Assembly (NCBI RefSeq): GCF_900104065.1
Contig: NZ_FNLC01000002.1
Coordinates: 230,995-294,994, forward strand
Reading direction: 5' to 3'
Length of the DNA stretch: 64,000 nt
Source: Natronobacterium texcoconense
GTDB lineage: Archaea > Halobacteriota > Halobacteria > Halobacteriales > Natrialbaceae
Shown piece after piece: positions 10,846 to 47,625 of this stretch. How positions within the stretch are numbered: the first letter of the stretch is position 1; each line of letters starts with the position of its first letter. Position numbers and translations under genes: made by a program. The notes beneath the pieces are model-generated. The model ran no database searches. It saw only the letters and a list, made by a program, of their open reading frames with translations, and was not told where the DNA came from.

Positions 10846-11022
10846 ATGTTCCGTGCCATCCTGCCCGAGGGACAGATCCTGTGTGATCGATACGAGCACG
10901 TCGAGAACGGTCTCGAACTATACGACGAGGAGGATACGCTCGTTGCGTTCGTTCCCTACGCCAACCTTCACGCGCTGGTCGACGAGGAAGTCTACGGCGA
11001 AGACGATCGGTCGATCATGTAG
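10846..11022 (+). CDS. Small conserved-looking acidic protein, function unknown
   Basis: There are 58 codons after a well-placed TATA-like box. The product begins MFRAILPEGQILCDRYEHVE and continues with YDEEDTLVAFVPYANLHALV, a pattern of short beta strands with acidic turns. That resembles the small single-domain proteins often kept in haloarchaea. It is too short to assign a role. Its stop overlaps the stop of the convergent TFB gene by eight bases, so the two transcripts can form a sense/antisense pair at their 3' ends. Confidence 0.6.
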   Translation: MFRAILPEGQILCDRYEHVENGLELYDEEDTLVAFVPYANLHALVDEEVYGEDDRSIM

Positions 11023-11986
11023 CCGGCGTCTGGTCGATCGCGTCCAGCTGTTCCCGGTATCTGTTTCTGACGGTGACGACGGTCGTCTGTGCGGTTTCGG
11101 CGACCGCGCGTTGCGGGATCGTCTCGTCACAGAGCAACCCAGCCGCGTAGATCGCCGCCGCCGCGAATCCGGTCGGTGACTTCCCGGAGTGAAGCCCCTG
11201 CTCGGTCGTCTCGTCGATGATCTCGATCGCTTTCGTCTCGACGTCTTTGTCGATATCCAGTTCCGAGCAAAACCGGGGCACGAACTGGCGCGGGTTCGTC
11301 GGCTCGAGATTGATGCCGAGTTCGTCCGCGATGTACCGGTACGTTCGGCCGATTTCGCGCTGGTCGACACGGGAGACGGCAGTTACTTCCTCGAGGCTGC
11401 GCGGAATGTCTTCTTTGCGACAGGCAGTGTAGAGGGCGCTGGTCGCGACGCCTTCGATCGACCGGCCACGGATGAGATCCTGCTGGAGCGCACGGCGATA
11501 GATGACACTCGCGGTTTCTTTGACCGGGTTCGGGACGCCGAGTGCGCTGACCATCCGGTCGATCTCCGAGAGCGCGTACTTGAGATTGCGTTCGCCGGCG
11601 TTTTTCGTCCGGATTCGCTCCTGCCAGACCCGGAGCCGGTGGATCTGGCCGTGTTTGTCGGCCGACATCGACCGGCCGTTGGCGTCCTTGTTCCGCCAGT
11701 CGATCGTCGTCGTCAGCCCACGGTCGTGCATCGACTGGGTCAGGGGCGCACCGACTCGAGAGAGTTCGTCGTGTTCCTGTGCGTTGAACGCACGCCACTC
11801 GGGGCCGTAATCGATAGGATCTTCTGTTAAGACGAGCCCACACTCGTCACAGACTCGCTCGCCGCGGTCGGGGTCGTGGACGATCGTGTCGGTTTCACAG
11901 TCGGGACACAGCTCCGTTCCTCGTTCCCGTTCCTGTTCTCGTTCGCTGGACTCACTTCTGGCATGATCGATGATGGGCTGTGTCAT
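11015..11986 (-). CDS. tfb: Transcription initiation factor IIB (TFB)
   Basis: The protein has 323 residues, the normal TFB length. The N-terminal zinc ribbon has C27-x2-C30 and C46-x2-C49, followed by the B-reader region (WRAFNAQEHDELSRVGAP). Then come two cyclin-like repeats (about 125-210 and 220-310) with GRSIEGVATSALYTACR and GKSPTGFAAAAIYAAGLL, the paired repeat signatures. Haloarchaea carry several TFBs with different promoter preferences, and this may be one of the paralogues. The ATG at 11986 is chosen at the first MTQP; the open frame upstream is not protein-like. The gene converges with a small ORF. Confidence 0.93.
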   Translation of the reverse strand: MTQPIIDHARSESSEREQERERGTELCPDCETDTIVHDPDRGERVCDECGLVLTEDPIDYGPEWRAFNAQEHDELSRVGAPLTQSMHDRGLTTTIDWRNKDANGRSMSADKHGQIHRLRVWQERIRTKNAGERNLKYALSEIDRMVSALGVPNPVKETASVIYRRALQQDLIRGRSIEGVATSALYTACRKEDIPRSLEEVTAVSRVDQREIGRTYRYIADELGINLEPTNPRQFVPRFCSELDIDKDVETKAIEIIDETTEQGLHSGKSPTGFAAAAIYAAGLLCDETIPQRAVAETAQTTVVTVRNRYREQLDAIDQTPAT

Positions 11987-12711
11987 CCGTAGCGGAGACA
12001 ATTCTGCGGTCACTGTAAGGGGCTCACATGGTTTCATAGGAAACCCCGACTTACTATTGCAGGTCGAAAGGAGAGTTCGACGCAGGCCTGACCCGTCTCC
12101 CGGGTCGTCGGGCCCGCGCCGACGACGTGTCCCATCGGTCGTCTCCGGGTGAAGCGACCGCGAGTGATCGCTCCGACCCATCAATTTCTATGGGAACGCG
12201 ACACATGAATCGTGACGATTGTTACGCCCTTCCCCGGGTGTAAATCATCAGTTCATCGCGTAAATTCTCCTTTCGATACCAAACTGTCGCTCGAATTTAT
12301 GTCGCTGGAGTCGAAGGTCGGACTAGTGACGAGTTGCCGATCCGTTCATCGACGTTCACCGGCGTATCGCTGGATTCGTCCCGATCCCGAAGTACGATAC
12401 AAATACGCGGCCCAAATCGGACGATACCAGCGATCTACGAACGCCACCCTCGACCACCAGCGATCGCGCCATCGGCCGCTATCGAGAGCTACTGGACGAA
12501 GCCGTCCCGTACTCACTTTGCAGCCGATGCGAAACGTGGCCGTGCTTAAGAGTGTCTCTGTTGGTGTACAACTTGGTGTGTCAATCGTGACTGCGAATCG
12601 CCGTCTGGAAGTACAGCGGTCGCTGCCGGGGTCTCTGTCCGGTAGCGTTCTCGACCGCAAATGCTGGCGGAGTCGGGTTCGAACTGCCCTATCCGCCGGA
12701 GGGACACGATA
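11987..12711. other. 725-base region without a convincing gene
   Basis: Open frames here (for example 12212-12712) lack haloarchaeal acidic composition and recognisable motifs. The stretch holds the upstream regions of TFB (leftward) and of the DUF7344 gene (rightward). An AT-rich patch at about 12180-12300 could be a promoter but no box stands out. Confidence 0.5.
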
Positions 12712-13311
12712 ATGTCCTCGATCGATACCTCACTCCCCGACGAAATCGCATCGTCGGTCGGCGAGTCCGAGGACGACGAACGCCTCTCGAAGGACGTCAT
12801 TTTCGAACTCCTCAAGAACCGCCGACGTCGAGAAGTCCTCGCTTACTTGCTCGAAGCCGAGGAAACGGTCACGCTCGGTGAACTCGCCGAGCAGATCGCT
12901 GCCTGGGAGAACGACACGGACGTAAACGCCCTGAGTTCCGACCAGCGAAAACGGGTATACGTCGCCCTCTACCAGACTCATCTTCCCAAGATGGACGACG
13001 CCGGCATCGTCGAATACGATCAGGACCGGGGCTTGATCTCGCTGTCGGACAACGCCGACCTCCTGATGATGTATCTCGATACCGACTCGCATCAACAGGA
13101 CCGATGGGACCGCTGGTACGGCGTACTGAGCGCGGTCGGCATCGTCCTCGTCGGCGGGGCGTTCGTTGGCGTTCCGCTGCTGGCTGCGATTCCGACGTTC
13201 GGAATCGCCGCCGCCGTCCTCGTCGCACTCTTTGGACTCTCGGTCGCTCACGCCGTGACGAACCGAAAGCAAGAACGCAACGTCAACGGCAAACTGTCTC
13301 GGATCGAGTAA
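12712..13311 (+). CDS. DUF7344-type winged-helix protein with two C-terminal membrane helices
   Basis: The protein has 199 residues. Residues 25-110 form the domain shared with the genes at 41425 and 44949: NRRRREVLAYL, a LAEQIAAWENDTD helix, then QRKRVYVALYQTHLPKMDDAGIVEYD. This is a winged-helix core ending in the dimer-like helix typical of DUF7344. Residues about 135-185 give two hydrophobic helices. It is therefore probably a membrane-tethered DNA-binding protein with the helix-turn-helix in the cytoplasm. The ATG at 12712 starts the acidic N-terminus; the frame open before it is not used. Target genes are unknown. Confidence 0.8.
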   Translation: MSSIDTSLPDEIASSVGESEDDERLSKDVIFELLKNRRRREVLAYLLEAEETVTLGELAEQIAAWENDTDVNALSSDQRKRVYVALYQTHLPKMDDAGIVEYDQDRGLISLSDNADLLMMYLDTDSHQQDRWDRWYGVLSAVGIVLVGGAFVGVPLLAAIPTFGIAAAVLVALFGLSVAHAVTNRKQERNVNGKLSRIE

Positions 13312-13552: not shown

Positions 13553-15328
13553 CTACTGATCGCGCGCGTTATACTGGACGTCGACCGTCGCGTCCCCGAG
13601 TAACCTGAAGTCCTCGAAGCCGCCGTCGAACCAGTAGGCATCCCGTTCGTCGCCGACGACGCCGCGGACGACGCCGTCCTCGTAGACGTGTTCGTCGTCG
13701 ATCGTGAGGTCGGCGAACGTCGCCTCGACTGCGTGACCCGAGACCGTAAAGGAGTACGACGTCGGTTCGTCCGTTCCGGTGCCGTCGATGAGGATCGCGT
13801 GAGGCAACAACTCGTTGTCGCCGTACTCGTCGGGGTCGATCTCCTCGCCATCGACGGAGACGACCGCGTCCCCTTCGAGGATCGTCACGTCGGTTACGGC
13901 ACCCGAGAACCGGAACGTCAGCGTCTCGTCGGTGACGGAGCTCTGGACCGTCGATCCCGAGATGGTCGTCGTCTCGTCGTCTTCCTCGCCGTCGAGTTCG
14001 ATCGTCCCCTCGACCGAAATCTCGAAGCTCGTCGGTTCACCCTGGCCCTCGACCTCGAGGGCGTGGGGCAGCTCTTCACCGTACTCGTCGGGGTCGACCT
14101 CCTCGCCGTCGAGGTACGCCGTCGCCGGCCCGTCGACGGTCAGCGTCTCGAGGTCGCCGTCGAACCGGAAGGCGTCCTTCCAGTCGGCGACGACGCCGTG
14201 AACGGTACCGTCATCGATCTCGGTTTCGTCGTCGACGGTCGCGCCGTCGTGCGTCGAGGGTTCGACGTCGCCGTCGACGACGAACTCGTAGCGGGAGACG
14301 CCCGAGTCGTCGCCCTCGAACAACAGGAGGTGTGGGAGTTCTTCGTCGTCGGTTCCTTCGTCGGGACTCGAGTCGTCACTGGATTCACCGGTCGCGGCTT
14401 CCCGGGCCGACGTCGGGACGCCGCCGGGAATCGATCGGTCGGCCGAACTCGAGACGCCCGACCGCTGGAGGCCGCCGCCCTGGACCTGTCCCTGGATCGC
14501 GCCGCCGGTCATGCGGGCGGAGCCGCTGCCGCGCATGACTGCAGCGTAGGGGTAGGAACCTGCTGCGAACTCCGAGTTCTCTATCGAGACCGTTCCGCCC
14601 GGCCAGACCCAGAGCGGGCGGCCGGAATCTTCGACGTAACCGCCCCATCCGGGGCCGTAGTCGGTGTTGTCGTTGTACGCGACGCAGTCGACGATGGCGT
14701 CGTTGCCGCCGGCGACGCGGAACGTGGAGACGCCGTTGTTCTTTCCGTAACAGCTCTCGAAGCGAGCCGAGCCACCGTAGGCGGTGTTGGAACAGTAAAA
14801 GCCGTTGTTGGGGTATCCCTGGACGTTACAGTGACGGAACGTAACGTCGCAGTTGGCGTTGCGGTGCATGAAAACGGCGCCCGGTCCGTGGGTGTGGCTT
14901 CCGCCCTCTTTGGTCGATCCGTCGCCGAGATAGACGTTCTCGACGAGGACGTTTCCGCTGGGTGCGGTGATCGAGATCATGAAGCCGCTCCCGCGGTGGA
15001 GTCCCTCGAACCCGACGTTGCGGATGACGGAGTTGCCGCCTTCGACGAGTAACGTGACGGTGTTGCCGGTCGTGAGGTCGATCAGTTTGTTCTCGAACGT
15101 CTCGCCCTGACTGATCGTGATAACTTGCCCCCGTGCGGTGATCGCTTCGTACTCCTCGTCGGCGCTTGCAGCGCCTGGCAGTGTCGCTGCAGCCGCCGCA
15201 GTCGTCACGCCGGCCAGTTTCACGTACGATCGACGATTGAGTAATCCGTCATTACTGCCATCGTCCGTCGAATCTGTCCCATCGTCGCCGATCGCTTCGT
15301 CGTCCGATACCGAAGGTTCGCGTGCCAT
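13553..15328 (-). CDS. Tat-exported right-handed beta-helix protein with three C-terminal repeat modules
   Basis: The protein has 591 residues. An acidic N-terminal tail leads to a Tat signal with RR at 32-33 (NRRSYVKLAG) and an Ala-rich h-region ending ASA. Residues about 58-300 read as a right-handed parallel beta-helix (pectate-lyase-like repeats such as NVLVENVYLGDGS, VTFRHCNVQGYPNNGFYCS). After an acidic linker there are three similar modules at about 331-417, 419-504 and 507-591, each with LPH at the start, a VDGxxxDPDEYG-like end in the first two, and an FRF/YWF core. The paralogue at 15871-16815 has only the beta-helix. Secreted surface adhesion or glycan binding/cleavage is possible; no catalytic residues could be assigned. 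Confidence 0.8.
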   Translation of the reverse strand: MAREPSVSDDEAIGDDGTDSTDDGSNDGLLNRRSYVKLAGVTTAAAAATLPGAASADEEYEAITARGQVITISQGETFENKLIDLTTGNTVTLLVEGGNSVIRNVGFEGLHRGSGFMISITAPSGNVLVENVYLGDGSTKEGGSHTHGPGAVFMHRNANCDVTFRHCNVQGYPNNGFYCSNTAYGGSARFESCYGKNNGVSTFRVAGGNDAIVDCVAYNDNTDYGPGWGGYVEDSGRPLWVWPGGTVSIENSEFAAGSYPYAAVMRGSGSARMTGGAIQGQVQGGGLQRSGVSSSADRSIPGGVPTSAREAATGESSDDSSPDEGTDDEELPHLLLFEGDDSGVSRYEFVVDGDVEPSTHDGATVDDETEIDDGTVHGVVADWKDAFRFDGDLETLTVDGPATAYLDGEEVDPDEYGEELPHALEVEGQGEPTSFEISVEGTIELDGEEDDETTTISGSTVQSSVTDETLTFRFSGAVTDVTILEGDAVVSVDGEEIDPDEYGDNELLPHAILIDGTGTDEPTSYSFTVSGHAVEATFADLTIDDEHVYEDGVVRGVVGDERDAYWFDGGFEDFRLLGDATVDVQYNARDQ

Positions 15329-15353
15329 GTATCCGGTAATACGAAACTACCAG

Positions 15354-15388
15354 CATAAACTTTCCCCTACAGTATGCATAAAATTTAC
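15354..15388 (-). promoter_or_regulatory. Promoter with conserved TAAATTTA-like element (beta-helix gene 1)
   Basis: On the minus strand GTTTATG lies about 26-32 bases before the ATG (TATA position), and a second block TAAATTT sits about 27 bases further upstream. The same pair with the same spacing occurs before the paralogue at 16815, so it is a likely shared promoter/operator. Confidence 0.5.
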
Positions 15389-15814
15389 AGATTGAAACAA
15401 CGTACATACAATTCGTTCATAGAACTTTTTACGTTCGTCATCGATGAAAAGGAGCGAAAACGGCGGACGGGACTGGAGTAACACTATATTACTGAAACCG
15501 ATCCCCCATTTCGGCAGCGTTCGATCCGATAATCCGAGGGGTAATCCGGTACTACCAGGGACGTGGTGTCGAACGGTAGCTCACTCACGTCCTGGAGTGC
15601 TGAATAGACGTCCAGGTGGCCAAACGATACGGAATCGAAACGGGACGGAGTACGGAATCGAATCCTCGAGAATCAAACGCGGAAAAGTGGAAGGCGTCAA
15701 CGGGAACCGGGGGCGGCGTTGCGTCGACGGCCACCGAGACGGACTACAGCAATCCCACCACGGAGAGCTGCGTCAGCGGGGGAGGTTTCATACGGACTGC
15801 TGTAAGTCATTGAC
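15389..15814. other. Intergenic stretch between the beta-helix genes, no gene seen
   Basis: Short open frames such as 15616-15813 have no haloarchaeal protein character. The only structure noted is an imperfect inverted repeat around 15555-15605 (CCAGGGACGTG ... CACGTCCTGG). Confidence 0.5.
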
Positions 15815-15846
15815 GGCACAACCGCGATCGTTCCTGCGGTTGCGCC
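15815..15846 (-). terminator. Hairpin after the second beta-helix gene
   Basis: GGCACAACCGC and GCGGTTGCGCC form an 11-base stem with one mismatch around a 10-base loop, 25 bases past the TAA of the beta-helix gene at 15871-16815. It could stabilise or end that transcript. There is no long T-run, so an archaeal-type terminator is only possible. Confidence 0.35.
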
Positions 15847-15870
15847 GGTAAATCGTTACAGCAGACCGTA

Positions 15871-16815
15871 TCAGTTACCGGAGGCGGCTTCTTCGGGACT
15901 TCGCGGGACGCCGTCGGGAATGAACGCGTCGGGGTCCGTCCCGACGTCGTCCTCGAGTTCGACGGTCGAACCGGCGTTTTCGCCGATACCCGCGACTTCG
16001 TCGTAGTCGGTGTCGCTGACGAGGACCTCGGTCGGGTTTCCGTTCGCGCCGGCGTCGATGGCGACGTTGTGCCCGTTCATCTCGATCTGGCAACCCTCGA
16101 CTTCGACCGTGCCAGGTGCCCAGGCCCAGATACCGCGGCCCTGGTAGCCCGAGTCGTCGACGTAGACGCTCGAGTTCGTCACCTTGCTCCCCTCCGTCGC
16201 GAGACGGAAGTGGGAAACGTAACAGTTCGCGGCGAAGCTGCTATCGATGTGGATCGTGCCGCCGCCGGCGTTCCCGGGCGCGGACGCGTAGATCGCGTTG
16301 TCCGCGAAGCCCTGGATGTTGACGTTCTCGAAGTCGATGTGACCGGCGTGGTCGGGGTCGACCCAGAAGGCGGTCTGTCCGTGACCGCTCGAGCTTCCGT
16401 TGCGGCTGTCGGTGCCGTCGCCGAGATAGACGTTCTCGACGGTGCTCGAGCCGCTCGGGTCGGAGTCGGAGATACCGAACGTGGCAGATCCGGTGCCGGA
16501 CGTGTTTTCCCCCTTGAATCCGACGTTCCGGATCGTCCAGTCGGTGCCGTGGGCGTTGACGATGATGTCCTGCCCAGTGGTCATGTCGATCAGCTTGTTC
16601 TCCCAGGTCTCTCCCGAGTCGATACTGATCGTCTGACCCTCGGCTTCGATGACCTCGTAGTCATCGTCGGCGGCTGCGGTGCCGGCTGCGCCGAGCGAAG
16701 TTGCTGCGGTCGCGACCGCTGCGAGCGATCGCACGTAGTTGCGGCGGGTTAATCCGTTGTTACGGCCAGTAGTCGGAGTAGTTTCCGTCTCGGACGTACG
16801 GGGATGCTGCGCCAT
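15871..16815 (-). CDS. Tat-exported right-handed beta-helix protein
   Basis: The protein has 314 residues and is a paralogue of the neighbouring 591-residue protein. The Tat signal has RR in LTRRNYVRSLAAVATAATSL, cleaved after AAA-like residues. The mature part aligns by eye with the larger protein (GQTISIDSGETWENKLIDMTTG against GQVITISQGETFENKLIDLTTG; NVYLGDGT; ending DGVPRSPEEAASG against GGVPTSAREAATG). It stops where the larger one continues into its three repeat modules. The ATG at 16815 is preferred over upstream codons because a TATA-like GTTTATG lies about 27 bases before it. Confidence 0.82.
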   Translation of the reverse strand: MAQHPRTSETETTPTTGRNNGLTRRNYVRSLAAVATAATSLGAAGTAAADDDYEVIEAEGQTISIDSGETWENKLIDMTTGQDIIVNAHGTDWTIRNVGFKGENTSGTGSATFGISDSDPSGSSTVENVYLGDGTDSRNGSSSGHGQTAFWVDPDHAGHIDFENVNIQGFADNAIYASAPGNAGGGTIHIDSSFAANCYVSHFRLATEGSKVTNSSVYVDDSGYQGRGIWAWAPGTVEVEGCQIEMNGHNVAIDAGANGNPTEVLVSDTDYDEVAGIGENAGSTVELEDDVGTDPDAFIPDGVPRSPEEAASGN

Positions 16816-16841
16816 ACACTTGCGTAACACCGGCTTACACT

Positions 16842-16877
16842 CATAAACTTTTCCTTGGGAGAATCGATTAAATTTAC
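16842..16877 (-). promoter_or_regulatory. Promoter with conserved TAAATTTA element (beta-helix gene 2)
   Basis: GTTTATG at the TATA position and the palindromic TAAATTTA about 27-28 bases upstream match the arrangement before the paralogous gene at 15328. Confidence 0.5.
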
Positions 16878-17154: not shown

Positions 17155-18948
17155 TCAGTCCTCGTCACCCTCGACGGCGTACATCTCGAACTCGTCGTTC
17201 GAGATCACCTTGTCCGCCTCCGGACTCCGCTCGAGTTCCGCGAGTCCCTCCTCGCTATAGTAGAGTTCCTGATAGACGCCAATCTCGCGCGTGAGGTCGT
17301 ACTCGGTGACGATGAGGTAGTGGTCGACGCCGTGGTACGCGCCGCTGTAGTTGCCGGCTTCGAACTGTTCGTGGTCGACTTCACCTGTCGCAATCGTCGC
17401 ACCGCTCAGGGCGTCCTCTCGCTCGAGGCCGTGGATCGCGTGATCGTACCGGAAGGGGTCGTACCCGAGTCCGGCGTGAGGTCGATCCTCGGCTGCGTGT
17501 TCGAAGCCGGACTCGTAGCCGCTGAACTTCTGGTCGGTGACGTGCTGGCTCGGGCTGTAGATCAGCGGCGACGCGTAGATAGTTAGCAATCCGAGTACGA
17601 GACAGACGCCGAGCACGAGCGCGACGACGGCGTCCGATCCCGGTCTCGTGACGAACCCGGAGAGCCCGCCGGCGAGGTGTGCGACGGCGATCCCCGCGAC
17701 GATCGTCAGGACGACGTAGATGAACCCGATCTGTCGAAACGCCATCGTCGGCGTTCCGACGAAATACACCAGCAGGATCCCACCGAGTGGGATCAGTGCC
17801 AGGCCGAGGTACGTGACGAACGCGGCCGTCTCCCGGTCGGTGTTCGTCCATCCCAGCCACATCACCAGGACGAAGAGACCGACGACGAGGCCGATTATCG
17901 CCGCATCGAGGAACATCCTGACGAACAGTTCGCCGAGACTGCCACCGATCTCGGCGAGGGAGGCTCCACGCTGGTCGACCTCGGCACCGGCGCCGACGTC
18001 GGCGGTCACCAGCCCGTAGACGAGTCCGGCGACCGCGTTCCTGAACCGTTCGTTCGAGACCGCCCAGACGGTAAAGATCACCCCGAGGACGGCCGTGTGC
18101 GCGTAGGCGGTAGGGTGTTCGAGGATCGGATGCTCGTCTACTCGAGAGCGAGCGAGGTACTGGACGCCGGCGATAGCCCCGACGAGGACGACGACGTTGA
18201 TCATCTGCTGGGGGTGAATCAGCAACAGGGCGATCGCGCTCAGGTACAGCAGGACGCTAAACGGCGACAGCCCGAACGGGAGGCGTTCGATCGTCGCCCG
18301 CCGCCGGAGGTACGCGACGATGGCGAAGACGACGACGGGGACGAAAAACAGTGCGACGGAGTTCGTATGCACGCCCATGTGCGTCGCGACGTTGTTCACG
18401 GGCAACACCATCCAGGAGACGATCGCGCCGAAGCCGACCGCTCGTGGGTCGCCACTGACGTTCCGGACGATGAGCGGAACGAAGATCAGGAACGGAACGA
18501 AGAGGACGACCATCGTCACGAGCAGCGCCCGCTCGATCGAGAACCCGCCGACCTGGTGTAACAGGGCACCGATCGAGTGGACGGCCGGGTAAAACAGTTC
18601 GTGGGGCGCGAGCCCGCCGTCGGCGACGTCTCGCGTCCAGCCCATGTGGGTCATCGCGTCACCCATCCCCGAGAATCGATAGTTGCGGATCAGCGGGAGA
18701 CTGACGATTGCGGTGACGGTCGTTCCGCCGAGGCCGATGCCAAGCGCCTGGTACCGGCCGCGACAGGCGATCGTGGCTCCGACGCCGATCGCCAACGCGA
18801 CGACGAACGCGATCCACGTCGCCGTGGGCGACCCCGCGTAGACCGATGACTCGTAGCCGGTCGCCGGGTTCGCTCGAGCGACGAGCACGCCGGCAGCGAG
18901 CGCGAGAAAGCCGACCGCGAGCACTCCCTCGAGTGCCGACCGTTTCAT
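17155..18948 (-). CDS. Large integral membrane protein, glycosyltransferase-C-like topology
   Basis: The protein has 597 residues with roughly twelve hydrophobic helices between residues 5 and 470 and a soluble acidic C-terminal domain of about 125 residues. The first loop between helices (GMGDAMTHMGWTRDVADGG) carries acidic and His residues in the place where GT-C/ArnT/DUF6541-type membrane glycosyltransferases keep their catalytic Asp, and HPQQMINVV falls in a later loop. It may transfer sugars from a lipid carrier, but this is an inference from topology and the surface-glycan context. An ATAACAAA element lies 73 bases upstream. Confidence 0.7.
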   Translation of the reverse strand: MKRSALEGVLAVGFLALAAGVLVARANPATGYESSVYAGSPTATWIAFVVALAIGVGATIACRGRYQALGIGLGGTTVTAIVSLPLIRNYRFSGMGDAMTHMGWTRDVADGGLAPHELFYPAVHSIGALLHQVGGFSIERALLVTMVVLFVPFLIFVPLIVRNVSGDPRAVGFGAIVSWMVLPVNNVATHMGVHTNSVALFFVPVVVFAIVAYLRRRATIERLPFGLSPFSVLLYLSAIALLLIHPQQMINVVVLVGAIAGVQYLARSRVDEHPILEHPTAYAHTAVLGVIFTVWAVSNERFRNAVAGLVYGLVTADVGAGAEVDQRGASLAEIGGSLGELFVRMFLDAAIIGLVVGLFVLVMWLGWTNTDRETAAFVTYLGLALIPLGGILLVYFVGTPTMAFRQIGFIYVVLTIVAGIAVAHLAGGLSGFVTRPGSDAVVALVLGVCLVLGLLTIYASPLIYSPSQHVTDQKFSGYESGFEHAAEDRPHAGLGYDPFRYDHAIHGLEREDALSGATIATGEVDHEQFEAGNYSGAYHGVDHYLIVTEYDLTREIGVYQELYYSEEGLAELERSPEADKVISNDEFEMYAVEGDED

Positions 18949-45573: not shown

Positions 45574-47625
45574 TTAGCTGGCGACTCCGATTGCCGCGAC
45601 AGGTTCGTCCGCTTCGGTGTCGTCGTCATCGTCGATCGGTTCGTCAGGGTCGTCGATCGGCTCTTCGGGTTCCTCCGGTTCGTCGACCGGTGCGTCCGGC
45701 GCATCGACGAGAACGAAGACGGTCGCCTGCTCGATACTGATCTGCAGGGCGTCTTCGATCTGGTCTTCGTCGACGTCGTTCACGGGCGCGTCATCGACGT
45801 CCTCGTCCTCGAGTTCTTCGTCTTCGAGTCCGTCATCGTCCATCGGGACGTCAAGGCCCTCAGTCAGGACGAAGACAGTCGCCTGTTCGACGGTCACGCT
45901 GAGGGTCGGTTCTTCGACAGTTTCGTCATCGTCGATATCGTTTTCGTCGTCGACAGTTTCGTTATCGTCGATTTCCTCGGCGTCGTCTTCGTTATCTACG
46001 TCCCCGATCTCGTCGTCTTCCTCGTCGACACCGTCTTCGTCATCTATCTCCTCGTCGTCCTCGAGTTCGTCCGGCTCTTCCTCGACGGGCTCTTCGAGAG
46101 CGTCGTCGAGACCATCGAGGATCACGAAGGCGGTCGCCTGACCGACAGAGATCTCACCGTCGTCAGTCGGCTGAAGGTCCTCGAAAACGACGAAGGCGGT
46201 TGCCTCGTCTATGGTGACGTCACGTTCGTCATCGACCTGCTCGTCGATATCTTCGGGTTCGTCCTCGAGTTCGTCCTCATCGTTTTCGACCGGTTCTGCT
46301 TCCTCGTCTTCGACTGGCTCCAGCTCATCGTCATCCATCTGGGCCAGGTCCCCGTCACCGAGGTGGACGACGTTTACCTGATCGAGCGACACCTCGAGTC
46401 GCTGGTCAGTGAGTTCGATCACTTCGACACCGTCAGCAGGCTCGTCGTCGAGGTCGTTCTCGAGTTCGTCCTCGTTCTCGAGATCGGTTTCGTTCTCAAC
46501 CGGTAGCTCGCCGTCATCGACCGGCATCTCGTCACCGTCCTCGAGGACAGCGACGACGGTCGCCTGTTCGATGACGATGTTGATCGCCATCTCGTCTATA
46601 TCTTCGTCGATGGGATCGTCTTCAACCGGGTCTTCGACGGGATCCTCGTCAACCGGATCCTCGACGGGGTCGTCTTCGATCGGATCGACGGGATCTTCCT
46701 CAACTGGTTCCTCTACAGGGTCCTCGTCAACTGGAGCCTCCGGGATCTCCTCGGTCGGGATCTCGATTGGGATCTCGATCGGGATTTCAATCGGTTCGAT
46801 CGTATCGTCGGTCGGGATCTCGATCGGAATCTCGATTGGGATCTCGATCGGGATTTCTATCGGCTCCTCGATGGGGTCATCCTCGACGGGATCGTCAACC
46901 GGATCCTCGTCGACTGGGTCCTTCTCTGGGTCTTCATCAACTGGATCCTTCTCTGGGTCTTCATCGACCGGATCCTTCTCTGGGTCTTCATCCACCGGAT
47001 CCTTCTCTGGGTCTTCATCGACCGGATCCTCGTCTACCGGCTCTTCGTCAGGTTCGACGACAGTGATGACAGCCTCGTCGATTACAGGCTCCCCGTCAGC
47101 CGTCAGGTACGGCGGATCCTCCTGGCCCTCGGTCTCGACGAAGTCGAACTCCTGGTTGTCGTTCGTATCCTGATGCGGCATCGCGATCAGCGTCTCGTCG
47201 TCCTCGAGTGGTTCCTCGAGCGTCACTTCGACGTTCTCGTGCGTTCCTTCCTCGAGGTACTCCGAGGTGCCGACGATGCTGTCGAAGAGTTCACCGATGT
47301 AGAGCGTGCTGTCGTGGATCGCCACGAAGCCACCATCTTCGACGGTGACCTCGTCGACGACGACAGTGTCGCCCTCGGTCTCCTGATCTTCGAACGTTAC
47401 GAAGGCGGCTTGCTCGTCGACGTCATCGTCCGGTTCGAGTTCGATATCTTCGGTATCGATTTCCTCGTCCTGTGCCGTTGCGTCCGTGTCGTTCTCCTCA
47501 CCGACGTCGGTATCCTGCTCGTCGACGGTTGCCGACGCTGTAGCAGCGCCTGCAACCATCGCCCCGCTCGAGCAGACCATCATCAATACGGTGAGTAGTA
47601 CGAGTACCTTGGTGCGTGCGCTCAT
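45574..47625 (-). CDS. Large acidic secreted repeat protein with DUF7282-like domain
   Basis: The protein has 683 residues, with a Sec signal (MSARTKVLVLLTVLMMVCSS to about residue 28). Residues about 70-200 resemble the DUF7282 surface domain (FVAIHDSTLYIGELFDSIVG, VEVTLEEPLEDDETLIAMPH, DTNDNQEFDFVET). Then come a tract of DPEKDPVDE nonapeptides, an EIPI tract and a set of short beta elements, IEQATVFVL and variants, separated by highly acidic linkers. It has no PGF-type C-terminal anchor. The composition, one of the most acidic in the window, and the tandem repeats suggest a surface or matrix protein. The repeats are coded by near-identical 27-base units. Confidence 0.8.
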   Translation of the reverse strand: MSARTKVLVLLTVLMMVCSSGAMVAGAATASATVDEQDTDVGEENDTDATAQDEEIDTEDIELEPDDDVDEQAAFVTFEDQETEGDTVVVDEVTVEDGGFVAIHDSTLYIGELFDSIVGTSEYLEEGTHENVEVTLEEPLEDDETLIAMPHQDTNDNQEFDFVETEGQEDPPYLTADGEPVIDEAVITVVEPDEEPVDEDPVDEDPEKDPVDEDPEKDPVDEDPEKDPVDEDPEKDPVDEDPVDDPVEDDPIEEPIEIPIEIPIEIPIEIPTDDTIEPIEIPIEIPIEIPTEEIPEAPVDEDPVEEPVEEDPVDPIEDDPVEDPVDEDPVEDPVEDDPIDEDIDEMAINIVIEQATVVAVLEDGDEMPVDDGELPVENETDLENEDELENDLDDEPADGVEVIELTDQRLEVSLDQVNVVHLGDGDLAQMDDDELEPVEDEEAEPVENDEDELEDEPEDIDEQVDDERDVTIDEATAFVVFEDLQPTDDGEISVGQATAFVILDGLDDALEEPVEEEPDELEDDEEIDDEDGVDEEDDEIGDVDNEDDAEEIDDNETVDDENDIDDDETVEEPTLSVTVEQATVFVLTEGLDVPMDDDGLEDEELEDEDVDDAPVNDVDEDQIEDALQISIEQATVFVLVDAPDAPVDEPEEPEEPIDDPDEPIDDDDDTEADEPVAAIGVAS
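46918..47025 (-). repeat. 27-base coding tandem repeat (DPEKDPVDE)
   Basis: About four near-identical units such as CTGGGTCTTCATCGACCGGA encode DPEKDPVDE. They can expand or contract by whole units without changing the frame. Confidence 0.75.

Follow-up and report, generated by a model that had tools for sequence, protein, structure and literature searches.

A conserved haloarchaeal pair of predicted secreted β-helix proteins, with and without three C-terminal modules, and its shared promoter

Introduction

VexL and AlgG are glycan-active β-helix proteins whose genes lie with those for the capsule or exopolysaccharide that they serve, and for neither of them do we know of tandem modules in a tail or of a twin without a tail. 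In the AlgE mannuronan C5-epimerases of Azotobacter, a catalytic β-helix A-module is followed by one to four C-terminal R-modules, which bind the substrate and tune processivity, group by position, and are themselves β-helices with calcium-binding nonapeptides (PMC4444821). Here, we describe a gene pair found in a 64,000-nucleotide stretch of DNA from the haloarchaeon Natronobacterium texcoconense (contig NZ_FNLC01000002.1, positions 230,995 to 294,994; the whole stretch is called the window). The host has a genome of 4.0 Mb and belongs to the family Natrialbaceae, with Halobiforma as its nearest named relatives. We refer to the gene for the 591-residue protein of the pair as BIG, to that for the 314-residue protein as SMALL, and to a neighbouring gene for a 597-residue membrane protein as MEMB.

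BIG resembles the AlgE epimerases in being a secreted protein (by prediction) with a right-handed β-helix followed by repeated C-terminal modules, and in both systems the number of modules varies (here three, four or more) and the repeats group by position. Its helix also matches the folds of AlgE4 (2pyh, Z 18.0) and AlgE6 (5lw3, Z 18.2). However, no sequence similarity between AlgE and BIG or SMALL was detected, the modules of BIG are predicted β-sandwiches instead of β-helices, and no calcium-binding RTX nonapeptide motif was seen in the BIG module alignments. In the open-access literature, we found no paper on haloarchaeal parallel β-helix proteins or on such a gene set. The interpretation weighed below, on which our judgement is evenly balanced, is that BIG and SMALL are two secreted forms of one polysaccharide-modifying β-helix protein that has the cell's own envelope polysaccharide or exopolysaccharide as its substrate, with BIG tethered by its modules and both genes under one dedicated promoter type.

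Results

BIG and SMALL share an N-terminus and a β-helix and differ by a tail

Both open reading frames (ORFs) lie on the minus strand, BIG at 13553..15328 and SMALL at 15871..16815, with the ATG of the latter at 16815. In BIG, an acidic N-terminal stretch starting MARE precedes a twin-arginine translocation (Tat)-type signal at about residues 30–57 (NRRSYVKLAG..., 15158..15241), which is followed by the β-helix (residues 58–316, 14381..15157), a short acidic linker, and three modules of about 85 residues: module 1 (residues 331–417, LPHLLL..., 14078..14338), module 2 (residues 419–504, ELPHALE..., 13817..14074) and module 3 (residues 507–591, LLPHAIL..., 13556..13810). SMALL has the same type of N-terminus and β-helix, and the tandem modules are present in BIG only. 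The initial annotation of this DNA had described a paralogous β-helix pair with three similar C-terminal modules in the larger protein, and both points stood up to analysis. The alignment of the two helices spans 295 residues at 41% identity (z = 54 against shuffled sequence), and pairwise local alignments of the modules score 10–17 standard deviations above shuffles, with 0 of 1000 shuffles scoring as well.

Arg32 and Arg33 of the signal are invariant in 45 relatives, and a hydrophobic stretch is visible in both proteins. The match of the BIG signal to TIGR01409 is weak and below the cut-off, and the region is modelled with a low predicted local distance difference test score (pLDDT). Both proteins thus carry the features of Tat-secreted haloarchaeal proteins, and their export is predicted.

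The pair is old and its order is conserved

Relatives of the BIG tail were found at E ≤ 1e-6 in 114 of 125 Natrialbaceae genomes, representing 27 of 29 genera, and close relatives (E ≤ 1e-50) in about 107 of the 125. When the neighbourhoods in 32 fetched loci and three plasmids were compared, SMALL adjoined BIG in nearly all loci read, and the usual order was MEMB, SMALL, BIG, a winged-helix DUF7344 gene, and a gene for a paralogue of transcription factor B (TFB). Some genera depart from this order, in that BIG is inverted or the regulator genes are several kb distant. Outside the family, the helix-plus-module genes of Haladaptatus and Halomarina also adjoin a DUF7344-like gene (45% and 38%). 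The initial annotation had proposed a duplication that kept its regulation. The promoters do match, but the proposal understated the case, as the pair predates the family Natrialbaceae, being an old, retained pair and not a recent local duplication, and the promoter pattern is exclusive to it.

A search of viral contigs and phage records gave no relative of BIG, so a phage-tailspike origin is not indicated. The host genome encodes a third helix protein of 662 residues (L008:1406-3394, contig C2, about 70 kb from BIG), which has one good and two degenerate modules and no copy of the special promoter; its gene adjoins flippase-like and ATP-grasp-like genes.

Gene conversion has been limited to the helix

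In a tree of the helices, the two genes group as sisters within their own genome at L063, L043, and L065 (support 100/98 to 100/99), and at L050 SMALL branches from within the BIG clade. The helix identity between SMALL and BIG within these genomes is 85% (L063), 84% (L043), 71% (L065) and 65% (L050), compared with about 35–50% as a rule in the other loci. In L063, the nucleotide identity between the two genes is 91–99% over residues 102–250 and 52% over the first 50 residues; L043 has a similar pattern, with 44–57% over the first 50 residues. In both loci, the N-termini of the two genes remain distinct and only BIG has the tail. Thus, in at least two genomes, the helices of SMALL and BIG have been homogenised by gene conversion that spared the signal peptides and the tail. 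Since L065 and L050 are more diverged, conversion and older replacement are indistinguishable there.

The opposite combination was also observed. In seven loci, the tail is 56–64% identical to that of the window and the helix only 32–38%, and a second BIG-like gene in Natronorubrum aibiense (L040:1815-3632) has a tail that is sister to that of the BIG of the same genome (100/99) and a helix of a very distant type. This gene adjoins a second MEMB-like gene, annotated as a major facilitator superfamily transporter. The conversion tracts, together with the loci in which the tail was kept and the helix diverged, show that helix and tail are separable units, and that what stays is one tailed and one tail-less version. 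The proposal of a duplication that kept its regulation should be extended accordingly: in several lineages, the promoters and the tail were retained, and the helices underwent replacement or homogenisation.

The two genes share a three-element promoter found only at this locus

Three conserved elements were found by aligning the upstream regions of 35 BIG and 26 SMALL genes. Element A has the form TGTAAATTTTA in BIG and GTAAATTTAA in SMALL, with its TAAATTT at 15381..15387 and 16870..16876, respectively (these and the following positions are on the minus strand). Element B, a B recognition element (BRE) plus TATA box, has the form GGGGAAAGTTTATG in BIG (15354..15367) and AAGGAAAAGTTTATG in SMALL (...GGAAAAGTTTATG in the window, 16842..16855); the BRE/TATA core common to both promoters is GGAAAGTTTATG, at a fixed spacing to TAAATTT. 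Element C is an inverted repeat between the TATA box and the start codon, GGTAGT-n5-ATTACC in BIG (GGTAGT-TTCGT-ATTACC, 15335..15351) and GTAAG-n5-GTTAC in SMALL (GTAAG-CCGGT-GTTAC, 16824..16838), and it ends 6–8 bases 5′ of the start codon. By its arrangement, element C looks like an operator and is a candidate for one. Element B is about 25 bases from the ATG, which suggests that the transcript is leaderless.

TAAATTT and GTTTATG, taken start to start, are separated by 27 bp upstream of BIG and by 28 bp upstream of SMALL, and this arrangement occurs exactly twice in the window, against an expected 0.00. In the host genome, the pattern TAAATTT-N16-24-AAGTTTATG likewise has exactly two occurrences. 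Across the family it gave 81 matches in 61 of the 125 genomes, all of them at most 6 kb from BIG, and the reversed pattern, used as a control on the same genome set of about 500 Mb, gave zero matches. Genomes without the exact string usually have the same string with one or two changes. The initial annotation had reported the matching pair of motifs and their spacing correctly, and the pattern proved to be unique to the two genes in the genome; element C had been missed, and GTTTATG by itself is not special.

It could be argued that the shared promoter is an ordinary haloarchaeal one, and that the two copies resemble each other only by having been copied with the gene, with no dedicated regulation involved. 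The haloarchaeal promoter consensus consists of a BRE, CGAAA, and a TATA box, TTWT (PMC4983044), which element B, including GGAAAGTTTATG, fits. GTTTATG alone is not enriched (three in the window against 1.4 expected) and is a normal haloarchaeal TATA box. However, conservation across many genera extends to the individual bases of elements A and C and is much lower in the sequence between them, and the full pattern is exclusive to this locus in the genomes searched. We therefore regard this explanation as very unlikely. A secreted protein of 683 residues (45574-47625) has GTTTATG upstream and no TAAATTT, and since element A is missing, it was not counted as a member of the regulon. This protein has a DUF7282 domain and long acidic PVDEDP/IEIP repeats.

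The C-terminal modules form an unnamed domain family

Module 1, modelled by AlphaFold2 (AF2) alone with 87 relatives, was predicted confidently to fold as a small β-sandwich of nine strands (pLDDT 94.5, predicted template modelling score 0.84). No family of Pfam or NCBIfam covers the module (87 modules were included in the Pfam scan), and no Pfam carbohydrate-binding module (CBM) family was matched. Foldseek searches gave a best E-value of 0.69 against the PDB and nothing below E 0.3 against the PDB and viral models. Superposition by VIA on PDB structures reached Z values of at most 4.9, which is noise level, and the nearest folds at this level include cohesins, immunoglobulin (Ig)-like domains, and chitin-binding domains. 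Among them, DUF4425 (4qey; Z 4.9, root mean square deviation (rmsd) 2.9, 74 aligned residues) and a Pyrococcus chitin-binding domain (2cwr; Z 4.7, rmsd 3.0, 65 aligned) are of similar size and sandwich arrangement, but such small carbohydrate-binding or cohesin-like sandwiches have no sequence relation to the module. The chain 6er2, which is sialidase-associated and which we take to be a CBM40, matched at E 0.015 only, too weak to be used. A Pfam match of module 2 to MRP-S35 (E 0.0014, below the cut-off) and the PDB matches to mitochondrial S28 were short, single-stretch and attributable to chance. The earlier statement that the modules resemble no known family thus holds; it was to be given up if a known domain family gave an unambiguous match, and none did.

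When 295 genomes of the phylum were scanned, the module turned up only inside the order of the host. Within the haloarchaea it is mobile, occurring on a GH16 protein (L088), on a subtilase (L087:478-4464) with seven tandem copies and a GH26-like stretch, and on many other β-helix proteins, several of which are of glycan type. The stand-alone copies that had been suggested as a search target do exist, as a protein of about 109 residues (MARDDPVR...LPNLVTIVGRG) with no signal peptide (L009:2131-2460; also L102:1045-1533 and L103:984-1310), and short module ORFs in many other Natrialbaceae suggest that this protein is widespread. The lack of a signal peptide in this protein is at odds with a role purely outside the cell. 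Binding to carbohydrate or the cell surface, as put forward in the initial annotation, is plausible in view of the GH16 and glycan-type helix partners, but the subtilase and the signal-less copies do not point the same way.

The modules might instead be generic spacers or stabilisers of Ig-like type, or bind S-layer proteins, and not be glycan-binding domains. The seven copies on the subtilase, the stand-alone protein, and the presence of cohesins and Ig-like as well as chitin-binding domains among the noise-level folds would suit such a role. On the other hand, the three positions in BIG form separate lineages, with 62–66% identity within a position across genomes and 30–38% between positions, which is more conservation than a spacer needs. 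The lineages that keep the tail 56–64% identical to that of the window while the helix falls to 32–38% also argue against it. We find a spacer or S-layer role somewhat unlikely.

The β-helix has the fold of polysaccharide lyases and epimerases

The AF2 model of BIG has a mean pLDDT of 81, with the helix (residues 60–316) mostly above 90, and this predicted structure is a solenoid of stacked coils of the right-handed parallel β-helix type. The best structural match by VIA was the PL6 alginate lyase 7dmk (Z 20.0, rmsd 3.9, 249 aligned residues). Overall, the helix superposes at Z 17–20 on PL6 lyases and chondroitinase B (best of all, Z 19–20), the epimerases AlgE4, AlgE6, and AlgG, PL9, VexL, and phage depolymerases. 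There is, however, no Pfam or PDB sequence match to the PL6 and chondroitinase B enzymes, and the identity in the structural alignment is about 8%. VexL and AlgG, which match at Z 17.4 each, differ in being periplasmic bacterial proteins. A Pfam scan of BIG and SMALL gave no β-helix family, including PF13229, at E ≤ 1, whereas PF13229 is reached by some of the more distant relatives in haloarchaea. When the PDB was searched with a profile of the whole family, all matches were either chance ones or similar to signal peptides.

In 93 relatives, a bacterial (myxobacterial) one included, residues N104, G109, E130, N131, G137, R204, R237, P301, and P305 are invariant, and R103, D84, N80, Y133, and D136 are nearly so. 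The members of the series E79-R103-E130 and N80-N104-N131 are 24–27 residues apart, about one coil, a spacing which suggests a charged stack and an asparagine ladder, respectively. The bacterial-looking helix protein L164:3230-4834, from a metagenome-assembled genome labelled Nannocystineae bacterium, is a lipoprotein with a helix 51% identical to that of SMALL and with another unassigned domain, placed before the helix, instead of the haloarchaeal modules. A transfer between domains of life and a mis-binned contig are both possible explanations.

Several points weigh against an enzymatic, glycan-directed function of the pair. The adhesin PfbA also superposes on the helix (Z 18.3); a parallel β-helix can be non-catalytic, and the fold alone does not prove catalysis; no sequence match links either protein to a PDB chain or to a Pfam family of carbohydrate enzymes; and the invariant residues are candidate catalytic residues by conservation, not by superposition on a known active site. 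Glycan binding by the modules is, moreover, one of several readings, given their presence on the subtilase and as signal-less stand-alone proteins. BIG and SMALL could then be structural or adhesive proteins, in which the helix serves as a stiff, non-catalytic spine for binding to matrix polysaccharide or to adjacent cells, with additional contact sites supplied by the modules. This would be in keeping with the fold, which adhesins and tailspikes share, with the lack of a matching Pfam enzyme family, and with the secreted, acidic, repeated tail. Yet the charged residues E130, R204, R237, R103, D84, and D136 are invariant or nearly invariant in the 93 proteins, which is more than a spine needs, and the closest folds are mostly enzymes, so that we judge this alternative to be unlikely.

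Neighbouring genes

The winged-helix DUF7344 gene (12661..13311, plus strand; PF24035, 1.1e-34) is placed tail to tail with BIG and is adjacent to it in most loci; its listed start may be too far upstream. The protein has two apparent C-terminal membrane segments, and on this basis may be a membrane-bound regulator. In the 125 genomes, BIG and the winged-helix gene are both present in 106 and both missing in 12, the winged-helix gene occurs alone in six and BIG alone in one, a genome that is 66% complete (Fisher p 1.3e-11, with no correction for kinship). Three genomes (G008, G020, and G094) have neither gene, though congeners have both. Five of the six genomes with the winged-helix gene only belong to one genus (g11). 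Halovivax asiaticus, with a winged-helix gene that is equally close to that of the window (68%), has helix proteins that diverged in an unchanged gene order, so the genus g11 may be the same case.

The TFB paralogue (11015..12184, minus strand; TFIIB repeats, 3.9e-44) has an uncertain ORF start. Its orthologues at the same place in other loci are 72–93% identical, and the nearest other TFB in the host genome is 67% identical. MEMB (17155..18948, minus strand), upstream of SMALL and kept beside it in most loci, is weakly DUF6541-like (PF20176, 1.6e-5, below the cut-off) and is probably a polytopic glycan-related enzyme. At 28–41 kb of the window there are genes for a UDP-sugar dehydrogenase, an epimerase, two Gfo/Idh oxidoreductases, a DegT aminotransferase, a hexapeptide transferase, a phosphodiesterase, and a glycosyltransferase-like protein, which makes this a surface-glycan locus. 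The plasmid relatives of the pair adjoin genes of the polysaccharide deacetylase, GNAT, and flippase types.

Discussion

In such a neighbourhood, a secreted glycan-active β-helix protein working on the organism's own polymer is the simplest reading. SMALL and BIG would then be lyase-, epimerase- or hydrolase-like proteins acting on the envelope polysaccharide or an exopolysaccharide, the polymer probably being one that contains uronic acid. To judge from the architecture, SMALL would be the free form, and BIG would be the tethered one, with a like active domain that its three tandem β-sandwich modules keep attached to the polymer or the cell surface, much as AlgE epimerases are kept on alginate by their R-modules. 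A single dedicated promoter type would serve both genes, with the winged-helix protein and/or the TFB as its probable reader, a guess from their adjacency and the co-occurrence described above.

A more elaborate scheme, which we consider rather unlikely and offer as speculation, would make the pair a two-gene regulon in which the membrane-anchored DUF7344 protein, perhaps with its own TFB, reads the promoter type that is absent from the rest of the genome and sets the balance between free and polymer-anchored enzyme. Domain-limited gene conversion would swap or homogenise the helix in step with changes in the polysaccharide, and the undescribed module, as a glycan-binding domain, would hold the enzyme in place.

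The locus is a near-universal surface-glycan locus of Natrialbaceae, the proteins of which are today annotated as hypothetical. Its modules represent a haloarchaeal family of extracellular domains that has no name yet and is present on several different secreted proteins. With conversion restricted to one domain of two paralogues, of which only one has a tail, nature provides an unusually clear experiment on the purpose of the tail. The promoter, with its three elements exclusive to the pair and with genes for a winged-helix protein and a TFB paralogue close by, makes this a compact system for studying the division of labour between multiple TFBs and one-component regulators in archaea.

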